Below, one piece after another: positions 30,611 through 50,322 of a stretch of DNA of 64,000 nucleotides. The translations under genes were made by a program, and so were the position numbers. The stretch's first letter is position 1. Every line of letters starts with the position of its first letter. The notes below the pieces were generated by a model. The model did not search any database and was not told where the DNA came from. It was given only the letters and a program-made list of their open reading frames with translations. Where the stretch lies: positions 496,001 to 560,000 of the forward strand of contig NZ_LT906662.1 in assembly GCF_900205865.1 (NCBI RefSeq), written 5' to 3'. The DNA is from Thermoanaerobacterium sp. RBIITD. Lineage in GTDB: Bacteria > Bacillota > Thermoanaerobacteria > Thermoanaerobacterales > Thermoanaerobacteraceae.

Positions 30611-30716
30611 GACAGCGGACGCGGTGGCCCACCGCAAGCCTAGGTTTTACACTAGACTTTTCGTACGGAAGCAACGTCCCATCCTCCGTCACTTTACGCG
30701 GGACACCTACTCTGCC
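30611..30716 (-). ncRNA. Tetrahydrofolate (THF-I) riboswitch
   Basis: Read on the minus strand the folT leader contains GGCAGAGTAGGTG, GATGGGACGTTGC and a closing CCGCTGTC. This matches the conserved THF aptamer elements (GAGUAG, GGAUGGGANGU, CCGC). P1 is GGCAG pairing with CTGTC; the P3 arm in the middle is longer than usual. Downstream, GAGCCTTTTCC (30593-30603) is complementary to the Shine-Dalgarno stretch GGAAGGAGGCTC (30543-30554), suggesting control of translation initiation. Confidence 0.88.
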
Positions 30717-31482: not shown

Positions 31483-32732
31483 TTATACTATTCCTATATC
31501 ATTTCTGTAATACATGCCTTCGAAGTAAATCTTTTTAAGTTCATTATAGGCTTTTTCCCTTGCATCATCATACGAATTTCCAACTGCAGTAACTGCTAAA
31601 ACCCTGCCACCAGATGTTATAATTTTATTGCCTGATTTTGATGTGCCTGCATGATATAAAAATACACCATTGATATCATCGAGTCCTTTTATCTCAAATC
31701 CAGTTTCATAATTTCCTGGATATCCTTTTGATGATGCAACTACACATACAGCTTTTTTGTCATCCCATTCAATATCTATACTATCGAGTCTACCATCAAT
31801 GGTAGCTTCATGATATCTACAAGGTCAGTCTTCAAAAGTGGCAGCACCACCTGTGTTTCCGGATCTCCAAATCTTGCATTGAATTCAAGTACTTTTGGGC
31901 CTTCTTTTGTTAGAATGAGTCCGGCATAAAGAACTCCCTTATATACAATACCTTCTTTTCTTAATGAATTAATAACCGGTTTTAATATGGTTTCAACAAC
32001 TTCTTTTTGCAATGCATTACTATAATATGGATTCGGTGCGATGTTTCCCATACCACCTGTATTCGGTCCTTTATCATCGTCATATATTTTTTTGTAATCC
32101 ATTGCCGAAATCATTGGGACGATTGTATCCCCATCTGTAAAAGCAAGTACTGATATCTCTTTTCCGAAGAGCATCTCTTCTATTATAACCGTATCACCAG
32201 ATGTTCCGAATCTCTTTTCTTTCATTATTATATCAAGGGCATTTTTAGCATCCGTATAGCTTTCAACGAGAAAAACACCCTTCCCTTGTGCAAGTCCATC
32301 CGCTTTAATTACGACAGGATACCATATCTCTTTTAAATAGTTTAGTGCACTATCATATCTATCAAATGCCTTAAAACGGGCCGTCGGGATATTGTATTTC
32401 TGAAGCAATAGCTTCGTGAAATATTTACTTCCTTCAATAGCTGCCGCATCTCTTTTTGGGCCAAATATTTTTAAACCATCTTTTTCAAATTCATCTACTA
32501 CCCCTTGCATTAATGGCACTTCAGGGCCTACAACAGTTAAATCTATTTCTTTTTCTTTGGCAAATTTTTTAAGCATATTAATATCCGCAACGTTTATATT
32601 AATACACTCAGCTATTTCAGATATTCCGGCATTGCCTGGCGCACAGTATATCTTATCTACTTTACTGCTTAGGGATATCTTATGAATGATGGCATGTTCT
32701 CTACCACCGCCACCTATAACTAATATTTTCAT
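31483..32732 (-). pseudogene. purD: Phosphoribosylamine-glycine ligase PurD, one-base frameshift
   Basis: PurD makes glycinamide ribonucleotide, step two of IMP synthesis. The frame from 32732 has MKILVIGGGGREHAI, the ATP-grasp core and NARFGDPETQVVLPLLKTDLVDIMK, then shifts and stops at 31776. In the next frame the normal C-terminus continues (ATIDGRLDSIDIEWDDKKAVCVVASSKGYPG... to FEGMYYRNDIGIV, stop 31483), giving about 416 residues. Reading AAGGCTACC instead of AAGCTACC at about 31801-31808 restores the frame. Either a true lesion, which would block purine synthesis, or a base lost in sequencing; the latter seems more likely. Confidence 0.88.
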
Positions 32733-32827: not shown

Positions 32828-34354
32828 CTAATGCTTAAAATGTCTTATGCCTGTAAATATCATCGAAATGCCGGCTTTGTTTGCTTCATCGATCGATGCT
32901 TTATCATTTATGGAACCGCCAGGCTGAATTATAGAAGTTACCCCAGCTTTTTCTGCTGCTTCTACAACATCAGGAAATGGGAAAAACGCATCTGACGCAA
33001 GAACACTTCCTTTTGCCTTTTCTCCTGCTTGTTTTATCGATTGCTCTGTCGGCCATATACGGTTAACTTGTCCGGCACCTATTCCAACCGTTGCACCATC
33101 CTTAGCGAGCACGATGGCATTTGATTTTACATGTTTAACAACCTTCCATGCAAATTTTAAGTCTCTAAGTTCCTTTTCTGATGGTGCCTTTTCTGTAACA
33201 ACATTTAATTTGTCATCATATAAATCTATTTCATCTTTTTCTTGTACCAGAAGTCCGCCTTCAACTTTTTTAAGGTCATATTCTTTTACATAACCATCTT
33301 TTAATTTAAGTATCCTTACGTTTTTCTTTTTCTTTAAGATATTAAGTGCATCTTCTTCAAAATCAGGTGCAATGATAATCTCTAAAAATATCTTTGAAAG
33401 TTCTTCAGCAGTTTTAGCATCAAGCTTTCTGTTAAACGCAACTATACCTCCGAATATGGATACCGGATCACACTCGTATGCCTTTTTAAAAGCATCATAT
33501 ACACTATCAGCAACAGCAACACCACATGGATTTGTGTGTTTTACTGCGACGGCAGCAGGCTCATTAAATTCTTTTAATAACTCTATTGTAGCATTAGCAT
33601 CATTAATATTATTGAAAGAAAGTTCTTTGCCATGTAACTGTTCACATTCTGATATACCATATGATTTTAACGCATTTCTATAGAATGTCGCCTTTTGATG
33701 TGGATTTTCTCCATATCTCATATCCTGTGCTTTTTCATAAGAGAACGTTATAACATCCGGAAATTCCTCATTATTTTTCTCCAAAAGGTAATTATATATC
33801 AATGAATCATATAAAGCTGTGTGTCCAAAAGCTTTCATTGCAAGGTAAAATCTCGTCTCTTCTTTTGTATCACCGTATTCTTTTATTTCATTTATTACTA
33901 TTTCATAATCTTTTGGATCTACTATAACAGTTACATATTTATTATTTTTAGCAGCCGCTCTAATCATAGATGGGCCACCTATATCTATATTTTCAATGGC
34001 CTCGTCAAGTGTGACATTATCTCTAAGAATTGTTTCTTTAAATGGATATAGATTTACAACGACTATATCGATAGGTTCAATGCCATGTTCTTTTAATGCA
34101 TTTATATGTTCTTCATTGTCTCTAATTGCAAGTAGCCCGCCATGTATTTTGGGATGAAGCGTTTTTACTCTTCCATCAAGTATTTCAGGAAACCCGGTCA
34201 CATCAGAAACTTTTATTACATTTATCCCATTGTCTTTTAAAAGTTTATATGTCCCACCTGTTGAAAGTATTTCATATCCAAGTTCATTGAGTTCTTTTGC
34301 AAAATCTAAAATTCCGTCTTTTTTTGATACACTAATTAATGCTCTCTTTGGCAT
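32828..34354 (-). CDS. purH: Bifunctional AICAR formyltransferase / IMP cyclohydrolase
   Basis: PurH performs the last two steps to IMP. The 508-residue protein has the N-terminal MGS-like cyclohydrolase domain ([35 protein letters not shown]) and the formyltransferase domain. Conserved motifs include [12 protein letters not shown] (about 265-276) and the C-terminal [27 protein letters not shown]. Follows purN by 24 bases. Confidence 0.96.
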
Positions 34355-34378: not shown

Positions 34379-34987
34379 TCAAAGTATTTTTACCTTTCTT
34401 CCCTCTATTTTTATACGACCTTCAGTAAAAAGTTTAACAGCATATGGTAAAAGCCTATGCTCTACTTCTAAAACCTTGTTTGATATAGTTTCTGGCGTAT
34501 CATTATCATCAACTTTTACAACTTCCTGAAGAATAATTGGCCCTGTATCAGCGCCTGTATCAACAAAATGTACTGTACATCCTGTATATTTGACACCATA
34601 ATCTATGACAGCCTTATGGACATTTCCGCCGTAATACCCTTTTCCGCAAAAAGAAGGTATTAATGATGGATGGATATTTATTATCCGATTGTGATACTTA
34701 TTTACGAGTTCTTCGTTAAGTATTGTAATAAATCCGGCAAGTATTATGCCATCCGGATTGATTTCATCAACTAATTTCATAAGTTCAGTATAAAAATTGT
34801 TCTTTAATTTTTTCTTTGGAACACAATATGCGGGTATATTGTGATCTTCAGCCCGTTTAAGAGCATATGCTCCTTCTTTGTCGCTTATTAAAGCGACAAT
34901 TTCGGCATTTATATATCCGCTTTCTACTGCATCTATAATTGATTGGAAATCTGTTCCATTTCCTGATGCCATAACTAAAAGTCTCAT
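34379..34987 (-). CDS. purN: Phosphoribosylglycinamide formyltransferase
   Basis: PurN formylates GAR with 10-formyl-THF. The 202-residue protein has LLVMASGNGTDFQSIIDAV, the catalytic Asn/His/Asp context in NIHPSLIPSFCGKGYYG (about 108) and TGCTVHFVDTGADTGPII. The ATG overlaps the purM stop by four bases. A Gly-rich ASGNGTD loop replaces the usual ASGxGSN. Confidence 0.95.
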   Translation of the reverse strand: MRLLVMASGNGTDFQSIIDAVESGYINAEIVALISDKEGAYALKRAEDHNIPAYCVPKKKLKNNFYTELMKLVDEINPDGIILAGFITILNEELVNKYHNRIINIHPSLIPSFCGKGYYGGNVHKAVIDYGVKYTGCTVHFVDTGADTGPIILQEVVKVDDNDTPETISNKVLEVEHRLLPYAVKLFTEGRIKIEGRKVKIL

Positions 34988-35994
34988 AGTAAAACCTCTT
35001 TTTCACCTTTTACTATTTCGCCTATAATATAAGGTATTTCTCCTGCTTTTTTAAGACGATTTATAGCTTCATCACAATCCTCTTGTGAAATAATAATAAC
35101 CATTCCAATTCCCATATTAAATGTTCTGTACATTTCATATTCATCTATATTGCCTTTTTCTTTTAGAAGTGTAAATATATATGGGACATCCCATGAACCT
35201 TTTATTATTTTAGCTGATGTTTTATCTTTTAATATCCTTGGAATATTGTCTATAAATCCACCACCAGTTATATGTGCTATTCCTTTGATATTAATACCCT
35301 TTAATTGATTTATCGCATTTACATAGATTTTTGTAGGTCTTAAAATGACATCTCCGAGTGTCGAATCATATTCTTTTATATAATCATTTATATTCATGTT
35401 GTTTTCATCAAATAAAACTTTTCTAACTAATGAATAACCATTTGAATGTATGCCGGATGATTTTAACCCTATTATAACATCACCAGCCTTAATATCTTTT
35501 CCATCTATTATTTCATCTTTTTCAACAACACCAACTGCAAATCCTGCAAGGTCAAATTCTCCGTCATTATACATTCCAGGAAGTTCGGCAGTTTCACCGC
35601 CTATAAGGGCACAACCAGCTTGGCAACATCCCTCTGCTATACCTTCGATTACTTTTACGCCAACATCACTTTCTAATTTCCCTATTGCAAAATAATCAAG
35701 AAAAAAAAGTGGCTTAGCTCCGCTAACAATTATGTCATTAACACACATTGCAACTAAGTCAATACCTATTGTATCATACTTTTTCATCATAAAAGCAATC
35801 TTAAGTTTTGTTCCAACGCCGTCCGTTCCTGATACAAGAACTGGATTTTTGTAATTTTTAATCTCAAATAGTGCTCCAAAACCGCCGATTCCATGTAAAA
35901 CACCATCGATCATGGTTTTTTTTGCTATAGGCTTTATCATATCAACAAATTTATTGCCTTCATCAATATTTACACCGGCATCTTTATAATTCAT
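34984..35994 (-). CDS. purM: Phosphoribosylformylglycinamidine cyclo-ligase
   Basis: PurM closes the imidazole ring (AIR synthetase). The 336-residue protein shows MNYKDAGVNIDEGNKFVDMIKP, the VSGTDGVGTKLKIA nucleotide-binding block, ALIGGETAELPGMY and ITGGGFIDNIPRIL. It lies 18 bases after purF and overlaps purN. Confidence 0.96.
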   Translation of the reverse strand: MNYKDAGVNIDEGNKFVDMIKPIAKKTMIDGVLHGIGGFGALFEIKNYKNPVLVSGTDGVGTKLKIAFMMKKYDTIGIDLVAMCVNDIIVSGAKPLFFLDYFAIGKLESDVGVKVIEGIAEGCCQAGCALIGGETAELPGMYNDGEFDLAGFAVGVVEKDEIIDGKDIKAGDVIIGLKSSGIHSNGYSLVRKVLFDENNMNINDYIKEYDSTLGDVILRPTKIYVNAINQLKGINIKGIAHITGGGFIDNIPRILKDKTSAKIIKGSWDVPYIFTLLKEKGNIDEYEMYRTFNMGIGMVIIISQEDCDEAINRLKKAGEIPYIIGEIVKGEKEVLL

Positions 35995-36012: not shown

Positions 36013-37410
36013 TTACTTTTTCTCAAATAGATATTTATTACCTTCCTTTGGTACTTCCATAGGATATACTCCATCAAAGCACGCAGCACATATATTTTTT
36101 TTACCAACACTTTTCCTTAAGCCTTCTACACTTAAAAAATTTAGGCTATCTGCACCTATATAATCACATATTTCCTGTACCGTCATTGTCGCACCAACTA
36201 GTTCCTTTTTTGTAGGCGTATCAATACCAAAATAACATGAATATTTGACAGGTGGTGAACTTATCCTTACATGTACTTCTTTTGCTCCACCTTTTTTAAG
36301 TTGTGCCACAAGCCGTTTCATAGTAGTACCTCTCACAATTGAATCGTCAATAAGAACAATCCTTTTATCTTTGACAAGTTCTTTTAATACATTAAGTTTT
36401 ATTCTAACGCCTATTTCTCTGTCTTTCTGTTCAGGACATATAAATGTTCTTCCTATATACTTGTTTTTAATTAATCCTTCCCCAATTGGAATGCATGATT
36501 GGTATGAATATCCTCTCGATGCAGGTACACCTGAATCAGGAACAGGCACTACAAGGTCTGCATCAACGTGGCTTTCTAAAGCAAGCCTTTTACCCATTTC
36601 ATATCTTGCTTTATATACACTCATGCCTTCTAAAACACTATCTGGTCTTGCAAAATAAATGTACTCAAACACACAGGGCATCTTTGCCGCTTTTGTTTCT
36701 ATTTTAAAAGATCTTAAACCTTCTTTATCGATAATTACAATCTCACCTGGCTCTACATCTCTTATGAGTTCCGCCCCTATTACATCAAGTGCACAGGATT
36801 CAGATGATATATAATAAATATCATCTTTTTTGCCTATACAAAGCGGCCTTATTCCATTTATATCTCTTATACCGATGAGTTTATCTTCCATTAAAATAGC
36901 AAGTGCATATGAGCCTTTTATCATATTCATAGTTTTTTTAAGTGATTCAACTAATCCGAGTTTATAATATTTTGCAATTAGATGAAGTATTATTTCACTA
37001 TCTGATGTAGTTTGCAATATTCTGCCCTCATTTTCAAGCTCTTGCCTTAATTCAACAGCATTTATAAGATTTCCGTTATGCGCCAGTGCCATGTATCCAT
37101 CTCTGAAATTTGCGACAAATGGCTGTGCATTACATGCTTCATTATTACCTGTTGTAGAATATCTCACATGTCCAATGCCGACATTCCCTATAAGGTTATT
37201 TAAATTTTCTTTTGAAAATACATCTGTCACGAGTCCCTTATCTTTTATGCAATTTACATATGTCCCTTGAAGAACGGCAATTCCTGCGCTCTCTTGACCA
37301 CGATGTTGTAGTGCTTGAAGTCCGTAATAAATATGGTCATGTATTGGCGTATTGAGGCTAAATGCTCCAAATACGCCACATTCTTCTTTCAATTTTACAC
37401 TATTGTACAT
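36013..37410 (-). CDS. purF: Amidophosphoribosyltransferase
   Basis: PurF commits PRPP to purine synthesis and is the main feedback point. The 465-residue protein has a short propeptide ending before the catalytic CGVFGAF (Cys about 11), the class II glutamine amidotransferase domain with HVRYSTTG, and a PRTase domain with VLIDDSIVRGTT (about 355-367). C-terminal cysteines (CAACFDG) together with internal CVFEY and CYFGID fit the [4Fe-4S] form of Bacillus type. Its substrate PRPP is also the ligand of the upstream riboswitch. Confidence 0.96.
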   Translation of the reverse strand: MYNSVKLKEECGVFGAFSLNTPIHDHIYYGLQALQHRGQESAGIAVLQGTYVNCIKDKGLVTDVFSKENLNNLIGNVGIGHVRYSTTGNNEACNAQPFVANFRDGYMALAHNGNLINAVELRQELENEGRILQTTSDSEIILHLIAKYYKLGLVESLKKTMNMIKGSYALAILMEDKLIGIRDINGIRPLCIGKKDDIYYISSESCALDVIGAELIRDVEPGEIVIIDKEGLRSFKIETKAAKMPCVFEYIYFARPDSVLEGMSVYKARYEMGKRLALESHVDADLVVPVPDSGVPASRGYSYQSCIPIGEGLIKNKYIGRTFICPEQKDREIGVRIKLNVLKELVKDKRIVLIDDSIVRGTTMKRLVAQLKKGGAKEVHVRISSPPVKYSCYFGIDTPTKKELVGATMTVQEICDYIGADSLNFLSVEGLRKSVGKKNICAACFDGVYPMEVPKEGNKYLFEKK

Positions 37411-37424: not shown

Positions 37425-38132
37425 TCAGTTGTTTTCAAGTCTATTTAAGATTTCTACATAAGCTCCTTCCACATTGCCGAGGTCTCTTCTGAATCTATCT
37501 TTGTCGAGTTTTTCCATTGTCCTGCTATCCCAGAATCTGCATGTATCTGGTGATATCTCATCAGCAAGTATTACTCCGTCTTTTGATTCACCAAATTCAA
37601 GTTTAAAATCGGCGAGGATGATATTTTTAGATAGGAAATAATTTGAAAGGACGTCATTGATTTTAAATGAGTATTCTTTTATTGTTTCTACTTCTTCTTT
37701 TGTTGCAAGTCCCATTGCTTCTATATGGTATTCATTTATAAACGGATCGCCGAGTTCGTCATTTTTGTAGCAAAATTCAAGAACTGTTCTTTTAAGCTTT
37801 GTACCTTCTTTAATCCCGAGCCTCTTTGAAAGGCTTCCTGCTGCATAATTTCTTATAAGCACTTCAATTGGCATTATGTTTACTTTTTTAACAACCATTT
37901 CTCTGTCATTTAATTTCTTGACAAAATGTGTCGGAATTCCTTCTTTTTCAAGCAATTCAAATAATATAGTAGATATTTCATTATTCAATATGCCTTTATT
38001 GTCAATAGTACCTTTTTTAAGACCGTTAAATGCTGTTGCATCATCCTTATATTCAATAATATATAAATCTTCATTGTCTGTTTTAAATACTTTCTTGGCC
38101 TTTCCTTCATATAACATCTCACGTTTTTCCAT
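37425..38132 (-). CDS. purC: SAICAR synthase
   Basis: PurC joins CAIR and aspartate. The 235-residue protein begins [33 protein letters not shown] and has [19 protein letters not shown] and [13 protein letters not shown]. Its ATG directly abuts the purE stop. Confidence 0.96.
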
Positions 38133-38624
38133 TTACAGCACCTCTTCCTGTATTTTTTTATCTTTTTCAATTACTTCTTCTGCCAATCTCTTTTTATAAT
38201 CTAACATCTTCTGCATCAAATCAGGATATTTTATACCAAGAATTTGTACAGCAAGTAAAGCGGCATTTTCAGCGCCGTCAATTGCAACAGTCGCAACAGG
38301 TATCCCCTTTGGCATTTGAACTGTTGATAGTAATGAATCCAAACCATCCATTGTCGATGATTTAACAGGTACACCTATAACAGGTATTACTGTCATTGAT
38401 GCTATAACACCAGCCAGATGTGCCGCCTTACCTGCGGCGGCTATTATTGCTTCATATCCCTCTTTAGTGGCATTTTTAGAAAAATCATGTGCGATTTCAG
38501 GTGTTCTATGTGCCGAAATAATTCTAACATCATATGCGATATCAAATTCTTTTAAAACTGCTATGCATTTTTTCATCAAAGGAAAATCTGAGTCGCTTCC
38601 CATTATAACTGCTACTTTTGGCAT
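38133..38624 (-). CDS. purE: N5-carboxyaminoimidazole ribonucleotide mutase
   Basis: A 163-residue class I PurE: KVAVIMGSDSDFPLMKKC, VRIISAHRTPEIAHDF (with the catalytic His), AAAGKAAHLAGVIAS and GVPVKSSTMDGLDSLLSTVQMPKGIPVATVAI. No purK is present here, and purL/purQ/purS are also missing from this cluster, so they must be elsewhere. First pur enzyme gene, 65 bases after the permease. Confidence 0.96.
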   Translation of the reverse strand: MPKVAVIMGSDSDFPLMKKCIAVLKEFDIAYDVRIISAHRTPEIAHDFSKNATKEGYEAIIAAAGKAAHLAGVIASMTVIPVIGVPVKSSTMDGLDSLLSTVQMPKGIPVATVAIDGAENAALLAVQILGIKYPDLMQKMLDYKKRLAEEVIEKDKKIQEEVL

Positions 38625-38689: not shown

Positions 38690-40138
38690 CTAACCCATAA
38701 AAAATGCAAATCTCAGTAAGAAAAGTAATCCAATGATATACATGAGCGGATGTACTTCTTTTGCTTTTCCAACTACCATCTTACATATCGGATAGAAAAT
38801 AAAGCCAACTGCAATACCATTTGAAATACTATATGTGAAAGGCATAAATGCAATAGTCATAAATGCAGGAAATGCTTCACTGAAATCTTCAAAGTTAACT
38901 TTTGTAACAGAACTTATCATCAGTGCACCAACTATTATAAGAGCGGGTGCAGTTGCCTGTGCAGGAACAATACCAATGATTGGAGCAAAAAACAGTGAAA
39001 CAAGAAATAATATGGCGACAACAACAGAGGTCAATCCCGTTTTACCGCCCTCGCTAATACCTGAGGCACTTTCAACGTATGTTGTTATTGTGCTCGTACC
39101 TAAAAATGAACCAATAGTAGTACCGATAGCGTCTGCAAATAAAGCTCTCTCAAACTTTGTCTTAAATCCGCCTTTTGATTTCTCAAAATCTTCTTCGTTG
39201 AAAATATGTGTCTTTGTTCCAGTACCAATCAATGTTCCAATTGCATCAAACATATCTGCCATACTGAAAGCCAGTATAACAGTTATTAAACCTGTCAATA
39301 TTGATATTAGACTTCCTGTTGTACCAGGTTTAAGTAAGCCTGCAAAATCCAATTTCATAAAAGTTGGAGCTAAACTTGGTGGAATTTGAGCAATAGTTTT
39401 TAAATTTGATATGTGTGTAATCCCCATTGGAATGCCTATTATAGTTGTAGCAATAATACCTATTAGTATTGAACCCTTTATTTTTTTAGTCATTAATATG
39501 GCAATTATTGCTATTCCTATAACAGTGAGAATTACTTCAGGATTTTTAAAATTTCCGAGTGTAACCAATGTGTCTTTACTTTGCGTTATGATTCCGCCGT
39601 TTTCCATACCTATAATTGCTATAAAAAGTCCAATACCTGCTCCAATAGCACTTCTAAGTGATTGAGGTATTGCTTTTATTATCAATATTCTTATCTTAGT
39701 TGCTGTTATAATGATATTAATAACTCCGCTTATTAATGCAAGTGCAAGTGCTGCCTGCCATGAATAATGTAATGTCAATACAACATAAAATGTAAAGAAG
39801 GCATTCATTCCCATGCCTGCTGACAATGCAAATGGCACATTTGCGAATAGACCCATGACTAATGTTGCTACAACAGATGATAATATTGTTGCCACAAATA
39901 CGGCACCGATAACCGGATCATTTGCAACAGATAATCCAGCTTTTGTTGCTGCAGATCCTAAAAGGCCTTTAGCATTCATTCCTGCCTGCATAAGTATTGC
40001 CGGGTTTACAAAAATGATATATGCCATTGTAATAAATGTCGTTATACCTGCTATTACTTCAGTCTTGACTGTTGTACCATTCTCTTTAAGCTTAAAATAA
40101 CTATCGAGAAAACCCTTCTTGCCATTACCATCTACCAT
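38690..40138 (-). CDS. NCS2-family purine base permease (AzgA/PbuG type)
   Basis: A 482-residue, about 12-helix transporter. The start GKKGFLDSYFKLKENGTTVKTEVIAGITTFITMAYIIFVNP is the signature of the hypoxanthine/guanine/adenine permease subfamily (PbuG/PbuO/AzgA). GMNAFFTFYVV and TTTYVESASGISEGGKTGLTS are family blocks. I use ATG 40138, with AAGGAGG upstream, not the longer frame to 40210, which enters the riboswitch platform. First gene after the tandem riboswitch, so salvage uptake and de novo synthesis are controlled together. Confidence 0.92.
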   Translation of the reverse strand: MVDGNGKKGFLDSYFKLKENGTTVKTEVIAGITTFITMAYIIFVNPAILMQAGMNAKGLLGSAATKAGLSVANDPVIGAVFVATILSSVVATLVMGLFANVPFALSAGMGMNAFFTFYVVLTLHYSWQAALALALISGVINIIITATKIRILIIKAIPQSLRSAIGAGIGLFIAIIGMENGGIITQSKDTLVTLGNFKNPEVILTVIGIAIIAILMTKKIKGSILIGIIATTIIGIPMGITHISNLKTIAQIPPSLAPTFMKLDFAGLLKPGTTGSLISILTGLITVILAFSMADMFDAIGTLIGTGTKTHIFNEEDFEKSKGGFKTKFERALFADAIGTTIGSFLGTSTITTYVESASGISEGGKTGLTSVVVAILFLVSLFFAPIIGIVPAQATAPALIIVGALMISSVTKVNFEDFSEAFPAFMTIAFMPFTYSISNGIAVGFIFYPICKMVVGKAKEVHPLMYIIGLLFLLRFAFFMG

Positions 40139-40188: not shown

Positions 40189-40238
40189 GCCCGGGAAGAT
40201 AGATTTTCATTAAAAGAGTGAAACCTATCCTCCAGGGC
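40189..40238 (-). terminator. Terminator hairpin of the tandem riboswitch
   Basis: On the minus strand GCCCTGGAGGATAG (40238-40225) can pair with CTATCTTCCCGGGC (40202-40189), with one mismatch and one wobble, followed by ATATTTATTTC. The 5' arm is the 3' end of the PRPP aptamer, so aptamer folding and terminator formation exclude each other. Confidence 0.65.
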
Positions 40239-40334
40239 TTTTATCCCACAGGTGTGGCTTATGTATGCCTGTACCGCTCGGTCCAAACGCCATAAAAGCG
40301 TGATATGCGTCACATTTGGCTGGAACCCTCAGGT
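40223..40334 (-). ncRNA. PRPP riboswitch (ykkC subtype 2)
   Basis: Minus-strand sequence reads ACCTGAGGGTTCCAGCC, then TGGACCGAGCGGTACAGGC, ACACCTGTGGGATAAAAGCC and CTGGAGGATAGGT. These are the ykkC-class conserved elements (GGGUUCC, GGACCGAG, GGGAUAAAAGCCC, GGAG). Closing P1 is ACCT with AGGT. The ykkC subtype 2 aptamers that sit right after a guanine aptamer and before purine genes are known PRPP sensors. ppGpp is the alternative ligand for this subclass, but position after a guanine aptamer favours PRPP. Confidence 0.85.
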
Positions 40335-40343
40335 ACACTTTCA

Positions 40344-40410
40344 CTCATAGTCAGACAATTTACGGTTGTCCGGTAGAAACTTCCAGACCATATTCCCGGA
40401 ATTATATGAG
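40344..40410 (-). ncRNA. Guanine-class purine riboswitch
   Basis: Minus strand: CTCATATAATTCCGGGAATA, TGGTCTGGAAGTTTCTACCG and ending GACTATGAG. This is the three-way purine aptamer: J1/2 UAUAAU, J2/3 GUUUCUACC, L3 CCGUAAA, J3/1 GACUAU. The base that pairs with ligand is C (GACUAU rather than GAUUAU), so guanine/hypoxanthine rather than adenine. P1 is CTCAT with ATGAG. Nine bases before the PRPP aptamer. Confidence 0.95.
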
Positions 40411-40435
40411 TTATTTTCACTTGTCTTACATGATT

Positions 40436-40464
40436 ATATTAACAATTTTTTTGTAATAAGTCAA
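40436..40464 (-). promoter_or_regulatory. Promoter of the permease-pur operon
   Basis: Minus strand TTGACT, 17-base spacer, TAATAT (with TATAAT overlapping three bases later), about 25 bases before the guanine aptamer. Confidence 0.75.
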
Positions 40465-40640: not shown

Positions 40641-40684
40641 GTCATTTTTTCTCTTTGCTTATATTTTTTATAGTGTCTATTATG

Positions 40685-40993
40685 TCATTTTATAATTTTG
40701 CTTAAATCCATTTTAGCATATATAACCCTGTGAATCTCAACAACCTGTTCTTTAACTACATAAAACACTAAATAGTTTTTTACAGGTAATATCCTGTATT
40801 CATATTCAAGAGATTTTTCAGGTTGATACACCCTGCATGAATACGGAAACTGTGCAAGCCTTGATATAGAAGTATCCAATTCATTAATTAAATCCATTGC
40901 TGCCTTTGGTGCTTTTAACTCATCTGAAATATAAGACACAATATTTGATAAATCTTTACTTGCCAAAGGCAGGTATCTAATTTCATACTTCAT
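40685..40993 (-). CDS. RelE/ParE-family toxin
   Basis: A 102-residue protein starting MKYEIRYLPLASKDLSNIVSYISDELKAPKAAMDLINELD, with the C-terminal YRILPVKNYLVFYVV and EIHRVIYAKMDLSKII blocks typical of ParE/RelE toxins. These either inhibit gyrase (ParE) or cleave mRNA at the ribosome (RelE); the sequence does not decide which. It overlaps its antitoxin by 11 bases. Located just inside the left end of the element, where it could favour element maintenance. Confidence 0.88.
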   Translation of the reverse strand: MKYEIRYLPLASKDLSNIVSYISDELKAPKAAMDLINELDTSISRLAQFPYSCRVYQPEKSLEYEYRILPVKNYLVFYVVKEQVVEIHRVIYAKMDLSKIIK

Positions 40994-41270
40994 CAGATTC
41001 CATCCTGTCAGAAAGTTTTGCCCTTAATTCATCGAAAACTTCTTTATGGGAATATCTCTTATCAGTTGTTTTGGCTTCCAGTTCCGCTTCCTTCAGCTTA
41101 AAGTAAATTTCACTTTCAAACAGTTTCCGTTCGTAAGCTTCCATGCTCATTACAACCATATCCCCATAACCATTCTTGGTCAAAAATACAGGTTCTTGAG
41201 TTTCATGAACAATCCTTGATATATCAGCAAAATTATTTCTCAAATCCGATACTGGTCTAATATGTGGCAT
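40983..41270 (-). CDS. Phd/YefM-family antitoxin
   Basis: A 95-residue antitoxin. The N-terminal DNA-binding region reads MPHIRPVSDLRNNFADISRIVHETQEPVFLTKNGYGDMVVMSMEAYE, characteristic of YefM/Phd. The acidic, helical C-terminus (KLSDRMESDEV) would bind the toxin. It lies first in the pair and presumably represses the operon through the palindrome upstream. Confidence 0.9.
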   Translation of the reverse strand: MPHIRPVSDLRNNFADISRIVHETQEPVFLTKNGYGDMVVMSMEAYERKLFESEIYFKLKEAELEAKTTDKRYSHKEVFDELRAKLSDRMESDEV

Positions 41271-41292
41271 ACAATTATCACCCCTTTATTAG

Positions 41293-41323
41293 TTTAGCAT
41301 AATTTTATCATAATTATGCTAAA
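41293..41323. promoter_or_regulatory. Palindromic operator upstream of the antitoxin
   Basis: A perfect 12-bp inverted repeat TTTAGCATAATT / AATTATGCTAAA around a 7-base centre, 22 bases before the antitoxin start. Position and shape suit autoregulation by the Phd/YefM protein. Confidence 0.65.
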
Positions 41324-41344
41324 ACATCAATAAAGCTGTAAAAG

Positions 41345-41680
41345 TCATTTTTCCTCATTAAGTTGTTCTAATGGCTTTATATTAAATGGGTCAGTAAGGT
41401 CATACCCCTTATATTTTTCCAGGAATTCAAGTAAGGCTAAACGTGTAACCTTCATTGAACCAAGTTTTAATGCTGGAAGCAAACCAGCTTTTATAAGGTC
41501 ATAAACATATTTCGTATTTGTTTTTATAAGTTCCGCAGTTTCAGCAATAGTATAAAGAATATCCTGTGATTCAGCATTATAAATGACAGTAACATTTTGA
41601 GTATTACCTAAAAGGTTATGCCTTTTCAAATCATTAATAATTGATTCAGCAATTTGTTTTTCATCAATTTCTATTTTCAT
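41345..41680 (-). CDS. Helix-turn-helix (excisionase-family) DNA-binding protein
   Basis: A 111-residue protein. The C-terminal half reads ILYTIAETAELIKTNTKYVYDLIKAGLLPALKLGSMKVTRLALLEFLEKYKG, the MerR/excisionase-like winged helix fold (HTH_17). The N-terminal half is helical. It might act in excision or local gene control; it lies far from the integrase, at the opposite end of the element. Confidence 0.75.
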   Translation of the reverse strand: MKIEIDEKQIAESIINDLKRHNLLGNTQNVTVIYNAESQDILYTIAETAELIKTNTKYVYDLIKAGLLPALKLGSMKVTRLALLEFLEKYKGYDLTDPFNIKPLEQLNEEK

Positions 41681-41818
41681 TGGCTTCAGATTCCTTTCTA
41701 TTTTCCCTTATCCTGCCTTCAGGATCGCCTTGCATCCGTTTTAAATCATCAAGGTAATACATTTATATGCCCTTTTATATTAAAATGCCTTAAAAACGAT
41801 TTTAGAAGGTTTTAGTAT

Positions 41819-42124
41819 CTAATAAACAATATCATCAACATCATAAGTTGGAATTTTACCAATATCACCTTCAGTTTTAATTTCTATTGGTGAATCATCA
41901 AAGAATGTATTTTCAAATACACTATAAGCTGCTAATAAACTATTTTCAGGTGGATAATATGTTCCACCTAATGCAGGTACTTCTTTAAGTAATTCATTAA
42001 ATCTGTTTTGAACTTGTTCATCATATTCCCCATCAAGTTCAATAATTGGAAAACCATCTTCCAAGAAACATTCAACCTGTCGTTCAACTCCAAGATATTT
42101 ACCTTTTGCAATTATCTTTGACAT
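41819..42124 (-). CDS. Unknown small acidic protein in the element
   Basis: A 101-residue acidic protein (MSKIIAKGKYLGVERQVECFLEDGFPIIELDGEYDEQVQNRF). No membrane segment or known motif. It follows the tape-measure terminator and precedes the HTH gene. The region 41681-41818 holds no gene that I can support. Confidence 0.6.
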   Translation of the reverse strand: MSKIIAKGKYLGVERQVECFLEDGFPIIELDGEYDEQVQNRFNELLKEVPALGGTYYPPENSLLAAYSVFENTFFDDSPIEIKTEGDIGKIPTYDVDDIVY

Positions 42125-42193
42125 GCTTCATCACCTATTTTTTGAAAATTAACTTTCAAAAATATTATAGCATATTTGATTTTATCCTATAAA

Positions 42194-42234
42194 CGAAAAA
42201 AAGCCAAGGAATAACCTTATTGGCTATCCCTTGG
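42194..42234 (-). terminator. Terminator of the tape-measure transcript
   Basis: Stem CCAAGGGATAGCC / GGTTATTCCTTGG (two mismatches) with a 5-base loop and CTTTTTTT on the minus strand, immediately after the tape-measure stop. Confidence 0.85.
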
Positions 42235-42242
42235 GTTAATTA

Positions 42243-43506
42243 TTATTCATGCACCCCTTCCGCAGCTATTACCATTGTTTCATAAACTTTATCTTCTAAA
42301 TGAGCAACTATACCATCAAGGTCAAGTTCTGAATTAATATGATTTTCATTGTTCATTTCAATATTAATTTCCGCTGTGGTAAATCTGTTTATTGCTTGTT
42401 GCTCTGCCAGGTCACGCATGTATTCCAGGCTTTCTTCACTTATTTCCATTGAATCAGCCACTTTTGCAGTATTCCCAGCTATATCAGCAATATTATTCAT
42501 CATATTATCATAATCAAATGAAAAACCAGTATTAGCTTCTTTAAATATAGGTTCAAGGGTTGACCAGTTGTCATATATCCATTGTGCCCCTTTACCAATT
42601 CCTTGGATTACTGGTTCAAAGGTCTGAAGCAATGTATTTCCAACAATTGTTCCAATTTGACCAAAGGTCATTGGCATTTCTTTAAACTTATTTTCAATAT
42701 CATCAGCAGCACTAAACATAGCATTTTTAATTACATCAGCAGTAATTAAACCTTCTGCACTCATGTCTTTTAATGTTCCTTCAACACCCATGACATTATG
42801 CATATAATCTTCAATTGCTTGTACCAACATTGGTGCATTTTCCATAATTGACCTGAATTCATCACCTTGAAGTCTTCCTGCTGCCATTGCTTGGGTTAAC
42901 TGATACATTGCTGCTGTTTGTTCTTGAATGCTTGCACCACTTACAGTAAAGGCTTTCTGCATTAATTCAGAAAAAGCAATCATTTCATCATTACTTTTGA
43001 AGGCATCACCAGCCAATAAACCTAATTTTGAAATAACATCTGCTGTTGCCTGATAAGAAGTCCTTGCCCTTTGTGCTAAAGCAAATATTTTATCCTGAAG
43101 TTCTGCTGTGGTTTGTAAAGCCATCATTGATTAAATCAAGCCTTGCATTTGTTTGTGTCATATTATCAGCAAGTTCAATAATCTTTTTAGCACTAAAAGC
43201 AGCACCCAAGGATATTGCCATACTTTTTAATTTGTCCATTAAGCCATGACTATTCCTAATATCATTATTAAATTCTTGCTGTGCCTGGTCTGCTTCCCTA
43301 ATTTGTTGTTCAATCTCATTAAATGCAATTTCAGCCCTGTTTAATTCTGCCCTTGCTGCCTGAATACTCGATGTATCAATTGCATTGCTGGAAGCCCTCT
43401 GCATAGCTTCAAAGCTTGAAATAGTAATATTTAATGCATTGGTTATACTTCTTAATCCTGGTGTCATTCCATCATATAATTGAATTGCACTTCTAATTGT
43501 TACCAT
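42243..43506 (-). pseudogene. Shortened phage tape-measure protein, frameshifted
   Basis: Combined over two frames this encodes about 420 residues. The N-terminal part reads MVTIRSAIQLYDGMTPGLRSITNALNITISSFEAMQR; the second frame continues LQTTAELQDKIFALAQRARTSYQATADVISKLGLLAGDAF and MAAGRLQGDEFRSIMENAPM, the conserved tape-measure core. An extra base in the AAA run at 43117-43119 breaks the frame. The usual long hydrophobic middle is absent: the chain jumps from YDNWSTLEP to the typical C-terminus (DIAGNTAKVADSMEISEESL...NRFTTAEINIEM). Tape measures set tail length, so this would make a very short tail, interfere, or be non-functional. Confidence 0.82.
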
Positions 43507-43923
43507 TTACTTTCCACCCCTTTCTTTGGAATTAAATCCAATAAAATTAAGTATTTGCTTAAATATTGGTTTTTCTTTTGATTGTTCATTAAACTGCTTT
43601 TTAACCATCCTTCTTTTTAATACAGCATTTAAACAGTATTTATAAACTCTATCATATCCATCCCTGTTTTTATCTTGCATATAATCAATTTTCATAAGCA
43701 ATTCTTTATCAGTATTTTGCATTAGTCTTGGAAATAGCTGTTTCAATGTTGGATATATTTCATGACTTTTATTCAACACTATTATTCCATTATCAGTAAG
43801 TGAAGCAACCTTATCTAATGAATCAGGGTCATTACAGGTATAAGGAAGGTCTTTAATATACCGTAAATGATGAAAATTTACCGCCCATAGATTTTCATTA
43901 ATAATTTCAATATTTTTATTCAT
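43507..43923 (-). CDS. Unknown phage-type protein upstream of tape measure
   Basis: About 138 residues from ATG 43923 (GGTGA upstream), beginning MNKNIEIINENLWAVNFHHLRYIKDLPYTCNDPDSLDKVA. Position just before a tape-measure gene is where tail-assembly chaperones are normally encoded, but I see no clear chaperone sequence. A mixed alpha/beta start and a strongly basic C-terminus are visible. Confidence 0.55.
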   Translation of the reverse strand: MNKNIEIINENLWAVNFHHLRYIKDLPYTCNDPDSLDKVASLTDNGIIVLNKSHEIYPTLKQLFPRLMQNTDKELLMKIDYMQDKNRDGYDRVYKYCLNAVLKRRMVKKQFNEQSKEKPIFKQILNFIGFNSKERGGK

Positions 43924-43943
43924 AGTATTTTCACCTACCTTTT

Positions 43944-44747
43944 TTAACAACACTGGTTAAGTATTCCATATAACAAATTATCCAATGTTTCCAGCATTTC
44001 CAGCACAATATCAGGTGAAGCAAATTGATTTATTTGGTCTTTTTCATGTTCCAAAGAATTAAACACCATCCACTGATATTTTTTCATTAATGCCTTGCCA
44101 GCTTCACTATTCCTTATTTTTTTAATTGCTTTAAATTCTGCTTCCTGGACAGATTGACGTGTAACTTTAAATTTTTTAGCTATTTGTTCAAATGTTTGCG
44201 GTTGACCTTTTAAACCATAATGCATAATCAATACATTTCTTACAAGTCCAGCACCTTTTCCAAGGACAGTATAAATTACGTTAAATAAATCTTCTCTTAA
44301 AATCTCATTATCAATTTCATCTTCAATTAATATAAATGGTTCTTCTGATTGTTCATCTGCAATAGATTCTTCAATAGTCACATCATCTGTTCCTGAAATG
44401 GTTTCTGAAATACTACATATTTTTATTTGTTCACTGTTTGAATCGCTTTTCTTTATCCTGCAAATATTTCTGTTTATGAAAGTAATCATTCTATATTTGA
44501 TTACTTCACTTGCATATGAAGAAAACTTAATTGGTTCTTCATCATCAAACCTGTACTTTTCAATCGCTTTTATAAAAGCAATCCAGCCTTCTTGAACAAG
44601 GTCGTCAAAATCCACTAATGCCCTGCTTGCAATACCATAATATTTATTGGCAAAAAATTTAACAATTTTTTCATTTTGTATAATCAATTCATCCAAAGCA
44701 GAATGATTGCCTTCTTGATATTCTTTTATAAGTTCTTCATTAGACAA
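43944..44747 (-). CDS. Sigma-70 family RNA polymerase sigma factor (element-encoded)
   Basis: A 267-residue protein with region 2 (FANKYYGIASRALVDFDDLVQEGWIAFIKAIEKYRFDDEEPIKFSSYASEVIKYRMITFINR) and region 4 helix-turn-helix (QTFEQIAKKFKVTRQSVQEAEFKAIKKIR). An acidic insert lies between them. It would direct RNA polymerase to a set of promoters, possibly late genes of the element or a helper phage. It starts 22 bases after the neighbouring region-4 protein gene. Confidence 0.85.
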   Translation of the reverse strand: MSNEELIKEYQEGNHSALDELIIQNEKIVKFFANKYYGIASRALVDFDDLVQEGWIAFIKAIEKYRFDDEEPIKFSSYASEVIKYRMITFINRNICRIKKSDSNSEQIKICSISETISGTDDVTIEESIADEQSEEPFILIEDEIDNEILREDLFNVIYTVLGKGAGLVRNVLIMHYGLKGQPQTFEQIAKKFKVTRQSVQEAEFKAIKKIRNSEAGKALMKKYQWMVFNSLEHEKDQINQFASPDIVLEMLETLDNLLYGILNQCC

Positions 44748-44769
44748 GCAATCACCCCTTCCCTAACCT

Positions 44770-45174
44770 TTACATCATGTCGGTAATATTAATTTCTGGA
44801 TATAAAATAATTGATAATTTCTTTAAGGCTTTTTCTTTATTCCTTCCAACTGTTGAAATATCAACATTTAAAGCATCTGCTATTTCATTTCTTGTCTTAC
44901 CTTCAATACAATAGTTGTAAAAAATAGCAAATTCCCTTTCGCCAGTTATTTCATGTAATCTTTTTAAAGCATCATTCATGCCTTTTATAAATATTGCAGC
45001 TTCATGTTTTTCATTGGCTGGAATAGAAGCATCTTTTATTCCAGCCAAACAATACTTAAACTTCTCAATATCTCTTTTAGTCAATTCCAAAGCCAAACCA
45101 CCGTTTTTTAATTGTTCTATAATCATTGATTTAAGAATTTCTTTGATTACTGCTTCATCCAGTATATTAACCAC
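44770..45174 (-). CDS. Sigma region-4-like phage regulator
   Basis: About 134 residues from GTG 45174, next to a G-rich stretch; the longer frame to 45300 would run through a terminator hairpin. The C-terminal part (GEREFAIFYNYCIEGKTRNEIADALNVDISTVGRNKEKALKKLSIILYP) is a sigma region-4 helix-turn-helix, as in ArpU-like late regulators of phages. The start is uncertain. Confidence 0.72.
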   Translation of the reverse strand: MVNILDEAVIKEILKSMIIEQLKNGGLALELTKRDIEKFKYCLAGIKDASIPANEKHEAAIFIKGMNDALKRLHEITGEREFAIFYNYCIEGKTRNEIADALNVDISTVGRNKEKALKKLSIILYPEINITDMM

Positions 45175-45183
45175 CCCCCAAAT

Positions 45184-45232
45184 ATAAAAAAAGCTGCATT
45201 GATATAAAAAATACTTTACACCAATGCAGCTT
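45184..45232 (-). terminator. Terminator upstream of the sigma-like genes
   Basis: An 11-bp stem AAGCTGCATTG / CAATGCAGCTT with a 20-base loop, then TTTTTTT on the minus strand. It ends the terS-linked transcript before the sigma-like genes, which therefore need their own promoter or antitermination. Confidence 0.85.
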
Positions 45233-45241
45233 AATGAAAAA

Positions 45242-45430
45242 TTATTCTTCTTTAGGTGCAGGATTATCTCCAATGCCGTCATGAAGAACAGTTCCAACAT
45301 GCTCTATTGCTCTTAAATGGTCATAACCATCATCTGTTGGGTTAACTGCATCCTGTGTTGTTGAACCAGTTTTAATTCCAACAGCTTTACCATTTACTAT
45401 TCCTTTTTATAAATTATCCTGGTATTTCAT
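45242..45430 (-). pseudogene. Small phage-type gene with early in-frame TAA
   Basis: From ATG 45430 the frame reads MKYQDNL, hits TAA at 45407-45409, then continues KGIVNGKAVGIKTGSTTQDA...GYDHLRAIEHVGTVLHDGIGDNPAPKEE to the stop at 45242 (62 residues in all). The long clean frame after the stop argues for a recent nonsense change (CAA to TAA) or restart downstream. It may be a small structural or decoration protein; not recognised. Confidence 0.5.
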
Positions 45431-45436
45431 ATCACA

Positions 45437-46090
45437 TTACACCACCATTTCATTTTTTAATTCAGCTTCTACTTCTTTATATGAAGCAGGAATAATACTA
45501 TCAAGCTTTTGAATAATCCTTTCAATATCTTCAATATCACTTAAAAGTGCAGTTTCTTTCAAAGTATAAGCCAAGCCATTAGTTGTATATGTTCCAGAAT
45601 CAAAGAACTTAGCAAAATTGTTTTTAAGGATTTCAAGATTATTTATAGCTTTATCAAATAATCCAAGGCTATAAGTAGTAACATTCAATCCATTTATTTC
45701 AGAAAGAACTGCATAAAAACGTTTCATAGTCTGATAATCGCCAAAGAATGGCTTTACCAATTCAAAAGCTTCTTCATCTGTAAGCTTATTGCCAAGTAAG
45801 TTAATGAATCCAATTGCATTTGAGATTAAAACCTGATAATCAGCAGGTTTTTTTATAGTAGAATTCAAAATGGCTTCCTTTTCTTCTGTGATGATGTTTA
45901 AAAGCTGTTTGTTAAAGTCTGCATCATTATTTAACATTTGTGCTTTTACCTTCCTGATTTCATCCTGTTTGGCATCACTGGTGTAATAGGAATTGCTTTC
46001 CCATTTCCTTATTTCTTCCAGAAAAGCATTTTTAACCTTTTTATAATTTTCAATAAGTTTTTACACTCTGTTTTTAAGTTCAATTTTCAT
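45437..46090 (-). pseudogene. Helical phage-type gene with early in-frame TAA
   Basis: ATG 46090, preceded by GAAAGGATGG, opens MKIELKNRV, then TAA at 46061-46063, then KLIENYKKVKNAFLEEIRKWESNSYYTSDAKQDEIRKVKAQM and on to a stop at 45437. The full frame would encode about 217 residues. The predicted protein is largely helical and charged, without known motifs; a scaffold-like or minor structural role is only a guess. A downstream start at the Met of QMLNNDADF could still produce 166 residues. Confidence 0.55.
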
Positions 46091-46131
46091 TTTTAACCAT
46101 CCTTTCAATTTTTGTATTTTTGATAAATTTT

Positions 46132-46680
46132 TTATAAGTCTTCTTCACATTGTCTTGCCAAAGCTTTTAATTCTTCAACTGATAATTCATCAAATGGATT
46201 ATCAGTTGATAGTTCAATTTTGTCATTAAACATTCCTAAATGCCTTCCAAGAAGTTCAAGTGCTTTAAGCTTATCATGAAGCTTAAATGATATTCCACCA
46301 TTATTGTTTTGTTTTATTTCCTGAATAGCTGATTTTTTATCAGCAGAGATGGAATCAGTATCAAAAATAACTAACCGTTTATATTCAAAGTTTCCATCCT
46401 TGCAGGTTTCAATCTTCAAGTAATCACCAATATTAGAAAAAGCAATCTTTGCAAGTTCTTGAATTACCATATCCTGTGTGATATTTGTTCTCTTTGCTCT
46501 TTCATCCATAAGTTTTTGAATTCTCTTTTGAATACTAACATTTACTAACAACCTTGCACCTTGTTCATTTGCTGTTTTAGGAGAATACCCTGCACGAATA
46601 GCAGCTTGTGTTGCGTTTAAGTCAACCAAGTATTCTTCACAGAACCTTCTTTGTTTTACTGTTAAATTTGCCAATTCCAT
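46132..46680 (-). CDS. terS: Phage small terminase subunit
   Basis: A 182-residue small terminase from ATG 46680 (AAAAGGCAGGTG upstream). MELANLTVKQRRFCEEYLVDLNATQAAIRAGYSPKTANEQGARLLVN is the terminase_2 DNA-binding domain; the C-terminal part (LHDKLKALELLGRHLGMFNDKIE) is also typical. TerS recognises pac/cos DNA and guides the large subunit. No large subunit follows. Satellites of the PICI type encode only TerS, to redirect a helper's packaging. Confidence 0.9.
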   Translation of the reverse strand: MELANLTVKQRRFCEEYLVDLNATQAAIRAGYSPKTANEQGARLLVNVSIQKRIQKLMDERAKRTNITQDMVIQELAKIAFSNIGDYLKIETCKDGNFEYKRLVIFDTDSISADKKSAIQEIKQNNNGGISFKLHDKLKALELLGRHLGMFNDKIELSTDNPFDELSVEELKALARQCEEDL

Positions 46681-46701
46681 CACCTGCCTTTTAAGAAAAA
46701 T

Positions 46702-46746
46702 AAAAGAGAACACCCAAGCCAGAAGCAAGCTTGAATGTTCTCTTTT
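46702..46746 (-). terminator. Terminator ahead of terS
   Basis: Stem AAAGAGAACA / TGTTCTCTTT with a long GC-containing loop, T-rich on both sides. It separates the early (replication) transcript from terS. Confidence 0.7.
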
Positions 46747-46940
46747 TAATTACTAAAAGCCATACTACAAGCATATCACTAATTATAATGCATTACCAGA
46801 GTATCAATGTGACATGGTTTGTGACATTTTAATAATAGCACAAATAATGTGTGAAATACTATGAAATTCTATGAAATATCTTGAAAATAATGGCTTCAAG
46901 GTGATAAAATCAGGGTGAGAATCTAATATTTATCTCTTGA

Positions 46941-46980
46941 AGCCATTGTGTAATGCTTATCCAGGTATTATGCAATGGCT
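46941..46980. other. Imperfect hairpin after the DUF739-like gene
   Basis: AGCCATTG / CAATGGCT with further partial pairing inside, no T-run. Function unknown; the 230 bases between terS and 46985 are otherwise empty. Confidence 0.35.
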
Positions 46981-46984
46981 TTCT

Positions 46985-47215
46985 TTATGGTCTACATACT
47001 TCAACTTCAAAGAAGTATGCCGGTATTTCTTCAGGTTGAATATTCAAAAGTTCAGCAGCCTTTTCTATTTCAGATTGTGTAAAGTCTGTTGCACTTTTTA
47101 ACCTGGAATTGATTCTTTGCTTGGTCATGCCCATAAGCTTCCCAAAGGCTTCCTTGTTGCCATACATGGCATTGATTCTTTCTTCAAGTTTTTCATGATT
47201 GAAAATAATAAACAT
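46985..47215 (-). CDS. DUF739-like small phage DNA-binding protein
   Basis: A 76-residue protein, FNHEKLEERINAMYGNKEAFGKLMGMTKQRINSRLKSATDFTQSEIEKAAELLNIQPEEIPAYFF. This is the Cro-like HTH pattern of DUF739 proteins of Firmicute phages. It may regulate late or replication genes. Located in the early region, downstream of the primase. Confidence 0.75.
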   Translation of the reverse strand: MFIIFNHEKLEERINAMYGNKEAFGKLMGMTKQRINSRLKSATDFTQSEIEKAAELLNIQPEEIPAYFFEVEVCRP

Positions 47216-47234
47216 TTTTCATTCCCCCTTCATC

Positions 47235-47495
47235 TTATAAGTAAAATTCAACGTCCTTCTTCAGTGTTATAGTTTCCCAGCCAAGGTATTTCCTTAAAAT
47301 GTTCATTGCATCAATTAAGGCTTTTAGTTCATCATAATAAGGATTGTCCGAAAACTTCTTATACTTACCAGTTCTTTGTTCTTCCAAGAAGCAATCCAGT
47401 AAGGCTTCATAATGTGGTTTGATTGCATCAAGTACATGGTCTATGGTAATCACATCCTTTCCTTTTTTGCTTTTAATACCGATACACCACACCAA
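47235..47495 (-). CDS. Unknown small element protein
   Basis: Up to 86 residues. The conserved-looking part begins at VITIDHVLDAIKPHYEALLDCFLEEQRTGKYKKFSDNPYYDELKAL. A GTG at 47450 directly follows AAAGGAT and is too close to be ideal, so the exact start is unclear. Helical, no known motif. Confidence 0.5.
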   Translation of the reverse strand: MVWCIGIKSKKGKDVITIDHVLDAIKPHYEALLDCFLEEQRTGKYKKFSDNPYYDELKALIDAMNILRKYLGWETITLKKDVEFYL

Positions 47496-47524
47496 TAATC
47501 ATTGGTTTGTATTTATACATCAAA

Positions 47525-47863
47525 TCACCACCTATCTTCTAAACCATCATCTAAAATGATTGCTTTTCTTTTGATTAAGTAATGATTCCCTTTAAAATAC
47601 TGGTGTCTTTTACAATCAATATCCAGGCAGCATCCAGTTTGGATTTTACCAAGAATATTACTGAAATGTAGTTCACCGCAATCAGGACATACATACCAAT
47701 AGTTGCCGTTTTGATAAGTTATTGGTTTTACAATGTGGATGTTTCTTTCCTGGTCAAATCTTGTCCGTTTATCAATGTATCCTTTTTCTATAACCAGGAT
47801 GTCACCAGGGTTAATAAATACTTCATCAGCTTGTTCAATCAGTTTCTCTAAACCATTTTTCAT
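47525..47863 (-). CDS. Unknown protein with zinc-binding cysteines
   Basis: A 112-residue protein. VCPDCGELHF and CCLDIDCKRH form a plausible four-cysteine zinc site in the C-terminal half. The N-terminal half (NPGDILVIEKGYIDKRTRFDQERNIHIVKPI) is beta-rich. Lies just beyond the putative origin, and could be a small nucleic-acid-binding protein; that is inference. Confidence 0.6.
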   Translation of the reverse strand: MKNGLEKLIEQADEVFINPGDILVIEKGYIDKRTRFDQERNIHIVKPITYQNGNYWYVCPDCGELHFSNILGKIQTGCCLDIDCKRHQYFKGNHYLIKRKAIILDDGLEDRW

Positions 47864-47896
47864 GATACATTCATCCTTTCTATAATTATTTATCAG

Positions 47897-48183
47897 ATGG
47901 ACAAGGTTATTTTTTATGCCTGTCCATCCCCAAAGAGTCTTGGAAACCTTGATTTTACAGGATTTTAAGGATTTTATATGGACATACTGGACATGCTTAT
48001 ATAATAAATTTATATTATATATATTTTTATTATCATATATTAAGTAAGTATATATTTTATTAAATAAATATATTAAGCTTGTCCAGCCTGTCCACTCTCT
48101 TATAAAGCCTTGATATTACAAGCCTTTTCAAGTGGACAGGGTTATTATTTATGCTTGTCCCGTGCTTGTCCAGCATGTCCACT
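47897..48183. other. Putative replication origin: iterons flanking an AT-rich block
   Basis: A 77-base block that is almost entirely A/T (47998-48074) is flanked by inverted copies of a doublet: TGGACATACTGGACATGC on the left (47979-) and GCTTGTCCAGCCTGTCC on the right (48077-). Further TGTCC/GGACA repeats lie outside, including two about 29-base direct repeats (47897-47925 and 48132-48160, roughly 86 percent identical) and another doublet at 48164-48183. It follows directly on the primase-helicase gene. Iterons around an AT-rich core next to rep is the known SaPI origin design. Confidence 0.68.
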
Positions 48184-50084: not shown

Positions 50085-50116
50085 TTCATCACCGACTTTC
50101 CATAGCTGATTCATTG

Positions 50117-50305
50117 TTATAAGGCTACTTTTTGTTCAAAGTATCGCTTTGAGATTTTTCCGGCAACAGTAATAAAACCTTGTGCTTTAAGTTCTTCATT
50201 CAATCTCTTGATAATTCGGTAGGCAGTTGATAAACTTACACCTAAAATTACTGCAACTTCTTCTGCTGTCAAGAAGTTTGTAGTTTTCTTATATGTTGTT
50301 TTCAT
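50117..50305 (-). CDS. Small HTH protein (Xis-like)
   Basis: A 62-residue protein: NFLTAEEVAVILGVSLSTAYRIIKRLNEELKAQGFITVAGKISKRYFEQKVAL. This is a winged-helix DNA-binding domain of the excisionase/HTH_17 sort. First or second gene of the leftward transcript; might be the excisionase or a replication regulator. Confidence 0.7.
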   Translation of the reverse strand: MKTTYKKTTNFLTAEEVAVILGVSLSTAYRIIKRLNEELKAQGFITVAGKISKRYFEQKVAL

Positions 50306-50322
50306 GCTGTTACACCACCTTT

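Follow-up and report, generated by a model that had tools for sequence, protein, structure and literature searches.

Tandem guanine-PRPP riboswitch preceding the permease-purECFMNHD operon of Thermoanaerobacterium sp. RBIITD

In the codA tandem of Bacillus megaterium (Sherlock et al. 2018, PMC5912903), a guanine aptamer is located directly 5' of a ykkC subtype 2b (PRPP) aptamer, and a single terminator overlapping the PRPP aptamer precedes a purine-related operon. This homologue was measured to act as an IMPLY gate, which is switched OFF only by guanine in the absence of PRPP, so that PRPP overrides guanine (PMC5912903). The P1 stems of known tandems are 5-7 nt apart (PMC5912903). For the tandem of Thermoanaerobacter mathranii (structure 6CK5), Knappenberger et al. 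proposed a strand exchange in which P0 of the PRPP aptamer and P1 of the guanine aptamer exclude each other (PMC6031431). Singlet PRPP aptamers are known from Facklamia ignava purC and Heliobacterium modesticaldum purB (PMC5912903).

The window, i.e. the whole stretch of 64,000 nt analysed here (contig NZ_LT906662.1, positions 496,001 to 560,000), contains a guanine-PRPP tandem leader on its minus strand. The aptamer order, the single overlapping terminator and the purine-related operon are those of the B. megaterium codA tandem; in contrast, the first gene encodes an AzgA-type permease and not codA, and the bacterium belongs to a different order. With the T. mathranii tandem it shares the class, the P0/P1 exclusion and the ligand-contact residues, and it differs in having U95, in its longer P1 loop and in a terminator that is slightly weaker; the aptamer sequences of the relatives searched within family f1 are near-identical. 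The singlets of F. ignava and H. modesticaldum share the overlap of PRPP aptamer and terminator but, unlike the window, have no guanine aptamer. The tandem is a clear yet ordinary example of the two-input switch class published in 2018. The initial annotation had located it correctly (40223-40410) and left its strand, minus, unstated. The aptamers, class-defining nucleotides, shared strand, terminator and operon were observed directly at the following positions:

40436..40464, minus strand: promoter-like site TTGACT-17-TAATAT, adjoining the leader on its 5' side
40343..40411, minus strand: guanine aptamer, from P1 to P1 (RF00167, P1 pairs checked)
40216..40347, minus strand: PRPP (ykkC subtype 2b) aptamer including P0 (RF00442 below gathering, model R1, covariation)
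40343..40346, minus strand: strand GAGU, which forms the 3' side of guanine P1 as well as the 5' side of PRPP P0 (overlap 4 nt)
40276, minus strand: C49 equivalent (pyrimidine in PRPP and ppGpp aptamers, A in guanidine-I; PMC6031431)
40233, minus strand: G96 equivalent, discriminating PRPP from ppGpp and pairing with the C75 equivalent at 40254
40189..40238, minus strand: terminator hairpin followed by the tail AUAUUUAUUU (40188-40179); the PRPP aptamer supplies the 5' arm with its 3' part
38690..40138, minus strand: NCS2/AzgA-type nucleobase permease, 482 aa (Xan_ur_permease, 8.7e-40)
38133..38624, minus strand: purE (AIRC)
37425..38132, minus strand: purC (SAICAR_synt)
36013..37410, minus strand: purF (GATase and Pribosyltran domains)
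34984..35994, minus strand: purM (TIGR00878)
34379..34987, minus strand: purN (TIGR00639)
32828..34354, minus strand: purH (TIGR00355)
31776..32732, minus strand: purD, 5' part (TIGR00877, positions 1-313 of 425)

The genes 3' of the leader, all on the minus strand, follow the order AzgA-type permease-purECFMNH-purD. Overlaps between adjacent genes amount to a few bases and gaps to at most 96 nt, so that they likely form one operon, and the profile matches support the earlier view of one leader ahead of a base permease and pur genes. The permease starts with an ATG at 40138 preceded by AGGAGG at 40150-40145, and its nearest solved relatives are the plant adenine/guanine permeases AZG1 (2.6e-63) and AZG2. 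Near the 3' end of purD the reading frame is interrupted by a frameshift, with 318 aa encoded in one frame and the C-terminal part, at about 31490-31780, in another; the cause is either a real mutation or a sequencing error. Promoter-like sites in the region were not more numerous than in shuffled sequences; the promoter position is therefore inferred from its proximity to the leader, directly 5' of it.

The guanine aptamer is identified by a match to RF00167 (Purine) at 40429-40328 (minus strand) with 90.7 bits (E 2.7e-15), far above the gathering threshold of 37 bits. Its P1 is formed by ACUCAUA (40411-40405) and UAUGAGU (40349-40343). The core consists of GUUUCUACC and GACUA, the latter just 5' of the P1 3' strand, and has C, not U, at the ligand-pairing position of the three-way junction, which we take to be the guanine-type nucleotide (xpt versus add). 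Score and junction nucleotide both agree with the guanine specificity first assigned. The tandem element is kept in all nine genomes searched within the genus, one of which is that of the window, and this conservation together with the E-values excludes a chance match.

P0 of the PRPP aptamer comprises eight pairs between GAGUGAAA (40346-40339) and UUUCACUC (40223-40216). Since GAGU belongs to both helices, guanine P1 and PRPP P0 are mutually exclusive. Among 88 distinct relatives, the PRPP aptamer shows 32 pairs with covariation. Seven of the eight P0 pairs, the four outer ones among them, vary on both sides, and for the aptamer as a whole 96.6% of the alignment cells pair, versus 28-47% with the partners slid by one column; judged by this covariation, the P0 helix is real. 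With one internal P0 mismatch allowed, P1 and P0 had two or more nucleotides in common in 33 of the 46 tandems in which both could be measured. In the remaining 13 the overlap was below 2 nt, with the helices abutting or nearly so, which indicates that a shared strand does not fully account for the mechanism throughout the class. As strand exchange had already been proposed for T. mathranii, the present data confirm it over more sequences and do not constitute a new model. A second GUGAAA further upstream (40420-40415) was considered as a mimic of the P0 strand and dropped, as it is not conserved in relatives.

The P0 3' strand and the end of the PRPP aptamer fall within the terminator hairpin. 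Its arms, GCCCUGGAGGAUAG (40238-40225) and CUAUCUUCCCGGGC (40202-40189), pair at 13 of 14 positions with a hairpin energy of -25.7 kcal/mol, which upholds the idea of an arm shared with the ykkC 3' strand. The one mismatch in the stem, U-C, results from U95, a position at which G is found in the relatives examined from the genus, and the U tract after the hairpin is weak. Across the leaders, an arm paired on average at -27.1 kcal/mol when matched to the sequence downstream in its own leader, at -19.7 against that of other leaders and at -12.1 against shuffles; the window value is -26.7 kcal/mol. A simple terminator scan of the region returned nothing and probably overlooked this hairpin because its loop of 9 nt exceeds the scan maximum of 8. 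The aptamers are spaced more closely than the nine bases initially given: 5 nt (40342-40338) separate the end of guanine P1 (40343) from the start of ykkC P1 (40337), within the 5-7 nt of known tandems, and no terminator lies between the two aptamers.

The second aptamer, initially described as ykkC subtype 2, appears from its class residues and a dedicated covariance model to be of subtype 2b (PRPP). At permissive thresholds RF00442 matched 40343-40228 (minus strand) with 48.5 bits, under its gathering threshold of 63, and this was the sole ykkC-type match found. Model R1, for which 12 leaders from within the order served as seeds, the window included, gave 127 bits on 40347-40216 (minus strand); the covariance-model check suggested earlier thus recovered both aptamers. 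R1 matched in 226 genomes of an even sample of 398 across the phylum, and 139 matches were collected, four of which score below 50 bits and probably represent ykkC RNAs of another type. Folded by minimum energy on its own, the second aptamer did not stand out (z -0.29); this is to be expected of an RNA whose shape depends on tertiary contacts, and covariance models were used instead. In the structures (PMC6031431), PRPP is contacted by A5, G6, G48, C49, C77, C78, G96, A101, G104 and G105, and C75 pairs with G96. With the numbering transferred via the Rfam alignment, in which C75 pairs with G96, every contact or class-defining residue tested is present in the window: A5 (40339), G6 (40338), G48 (40277), C49 (40276), C75 (40254), C77, C78, G96 (40233), A101 (40228), A103 (40226), G104 (40225) and G105 (40224). 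G occupies position 96 in 133 of the 139 collected aptamers, and C75 and G105 are invariant. Position 95 varies freely; U95 was considered as a breaker of the S-turn and dropped, as A, G, C and U are all found there in the 139 PRPP-type aptamers.

The residues of the window and their conservation place the second aptamer in the PRPP class and not with ppGpp or guanidine. Few nucleotides separate ppGpp from PRPP aptamers, and G96A alone turns a PRPP aptamer into a ppGpp aptamer, with a shift in specificity of about 40,000-fold (PMC6031431). A guanine-ppGpp tandem (subtype 2a) is nevertheless very improbable, given the G at the 96 equivalent paired to C75 and a gene content of purine synthesis, typical of PRPP aptamers, and not of branched-chain amino acid genes. 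Even less credence can be given to a guanidine-I riboswitch, which the match to RF00442 might suggest: the score stays under gathering, position 49 is C and not A, and P0, absent from guanidine-I, is present and covarying.

We consider the leader, with a probability of about 93%, to be a tandem guanine-PRPP riboswitch controlling the permease-purECFMNHD operon by transcription attenuation as an IMPLY-type gate. Ligand binding, direction of switching and truth table are taken by analogy from published work on close relatives. Guanine binding would stabilise guanine P1 (40411-40405 with 40349-40343) and so keep GAGU from P0; the PRPP aptamer would be weakened, the terminator (40238-40189) would form and transcription would stop. 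PRPP binding, in turn, would stabilise P0 (40346-40339 with 40223-40216) and P3, which would use up the 5' arm of the terminator and break guanine P1, and transcription would continue even with guanine. The initial formulation, that PRPP favours expression unless guanine is present, reverses the priority of the published system, where PRPP overrides guanine. Its wording amounts to a NOT-guanine AND PRPP gate, ON only with PRPP and without guanine. A default OFF state is conceivable, as terminator plus guanine P1 (-74.5 kcal/mol) is statically favoured over P0 plus aptamer (-59.0 kcal/mol), and the ligand-free state may lean OFF where an ideal IMPLY gate would be ON. These energies omit ligand, tertiary contacts and kinetics, and their gap of about 15 kcal/mol cannot fix the ligand-free state. 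The AND gate is improbable, however, as there is a single shared terminator and none separately between the aptamers, and the published homologues of this layout are IMPLY gates with PRPP over guanine.

The first gene is indeed a base permease, as initially described, but this does not set the locus apart. Permease-first was the commonest tandem layout in the gene-context sample: an NCS2 permease came first in 33 of 65 leaders called as tandem and in 5 of 70 called as singlet, by a pattern rule that misses some tandems (L222 is one) and may include false ones. Counted per bacterial family, the ratio was 13 of 23 for tandems versus 3 of 30 for singlets (Fisher p 0.0006), in a sample ranked by similarity to the aptamer of this order and in which a family may sit in both columns. 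Leaders in the sample that lack a guanine aptamer are followed for the most part by purE or purB and seldom by a permease gene. The permease-first enrichment in guanine-containing leaders is a small new observation, which may be worth recording since the word 'permease' is absent from the main text, supplements aside, of the paper describing the class. At one locus (L223), two PRPP aptamers occur within 1 kb (401-503 and 1284-1387), the first with and the second without a guanine aptamer.

The ykkC-type RNA of the tandem is the only one found in the genome (3.40 Mb, one contig), and only two purine riboswitches were found. The second is a singlet guanine riboswitch (55712-55615, minus strand, 65.2 bits) ahead of guaB-guaA. 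The GMP branch would thus be under guanine alone, without PRPP override, and the path to IMP together with the permease under guanine and PRPP; such a division of labour was argued for by the discoverers of the tandem class. The window further contains a THF riboswitch (30611-30716, 70.4 bits) before a gene for a folate-family ECF transporter S component and a SAM riboswitch (20035-20135, plus strand, 92.5 bits). Between guaA and the leader, an element at 40685-52439 holds phage-like genes, a ParE/Phd toxin-antitoxin pair and an integrase, which lies beside the guaA 3' end. In two relatives (L002 and L007) the leader follows closely after the end of guaA; in five (L003-L005, L008 and L009) DNA similar to window 40673-41300, with the toxin-antitoxin pair, is already in between. 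Direct repeats marking the ends of the guaA-leader insert were looked for and none was found.

Other RNAs occupy the place of the guanine aptamer in some lineages. In family f25 (genera g29 and g99), a conserved element of about 55-64 nt, CCUCA...UGAGG, lies just upstream of the PRPP aptamer before purE in five genomes (L141, L142, L144, L147 and L155), with the consensus CCUCA(G)GCA...GG...GGCGGC...GCCG...ACC.AAA..UGC.UGAGG. Its closing helix overlaps PRPP P0, and its fold is much more stable than those of shuffled sequences (z -3.7 to -5.6). In the single example scanned (L141) the element had no Rfam match, and a model of the element was confined to this one family, with strong matches in three genomes, two weak matches overall and nothing convincing elsewhere. 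In the three g99 genomes a second PRPP leader is a guanine tandem before a permease gene. Leaders of family f15 (L133, L134, L135, L138, L140, L178 and L227) have no guanine aptamer and carry instead a short hairpin, e.g. CUCGUUUUUCGGG...CCCGUAUACGAG, whose 3' strand CGAG doubles as P0 strand; it is possibly a ligand-free competitor for P0. In family f52 (L152, L153, L171, L172, L174, L177, L181, L193 and L201), a hairpin with a CGGCA-type internal segment, also shorter than the f25 element, sits directly 5' of the PRPP aptamer, without Rfam match in the two scanned (L152 and L174). The elements of the three families may represent orphan aptamers or else hairpins that compete without binding a ligand. 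A speculative and rather doubtful reading is that the site upstream of the PRPP aptamer acts as a socket, where a helix closing on the P0 strand would let any structured RNA add a second input; the guanine plug, present in the window and about half of the leaders, would go with permease-first operons, and the f25 plug would be an orphan RNA, possibly a new aptamer.

The locus represents a clean case in which RNA alone places purine supply under two-input control, in a bacterium whose family also includes the organism of the crystallised aptamer; the gate covers base import besides synthesis. Across the survey, guanine-sensing leaders go with permease-first operons, strand exchange is backed on many sequences, and other RNAs take the guanine slot of some lineages.
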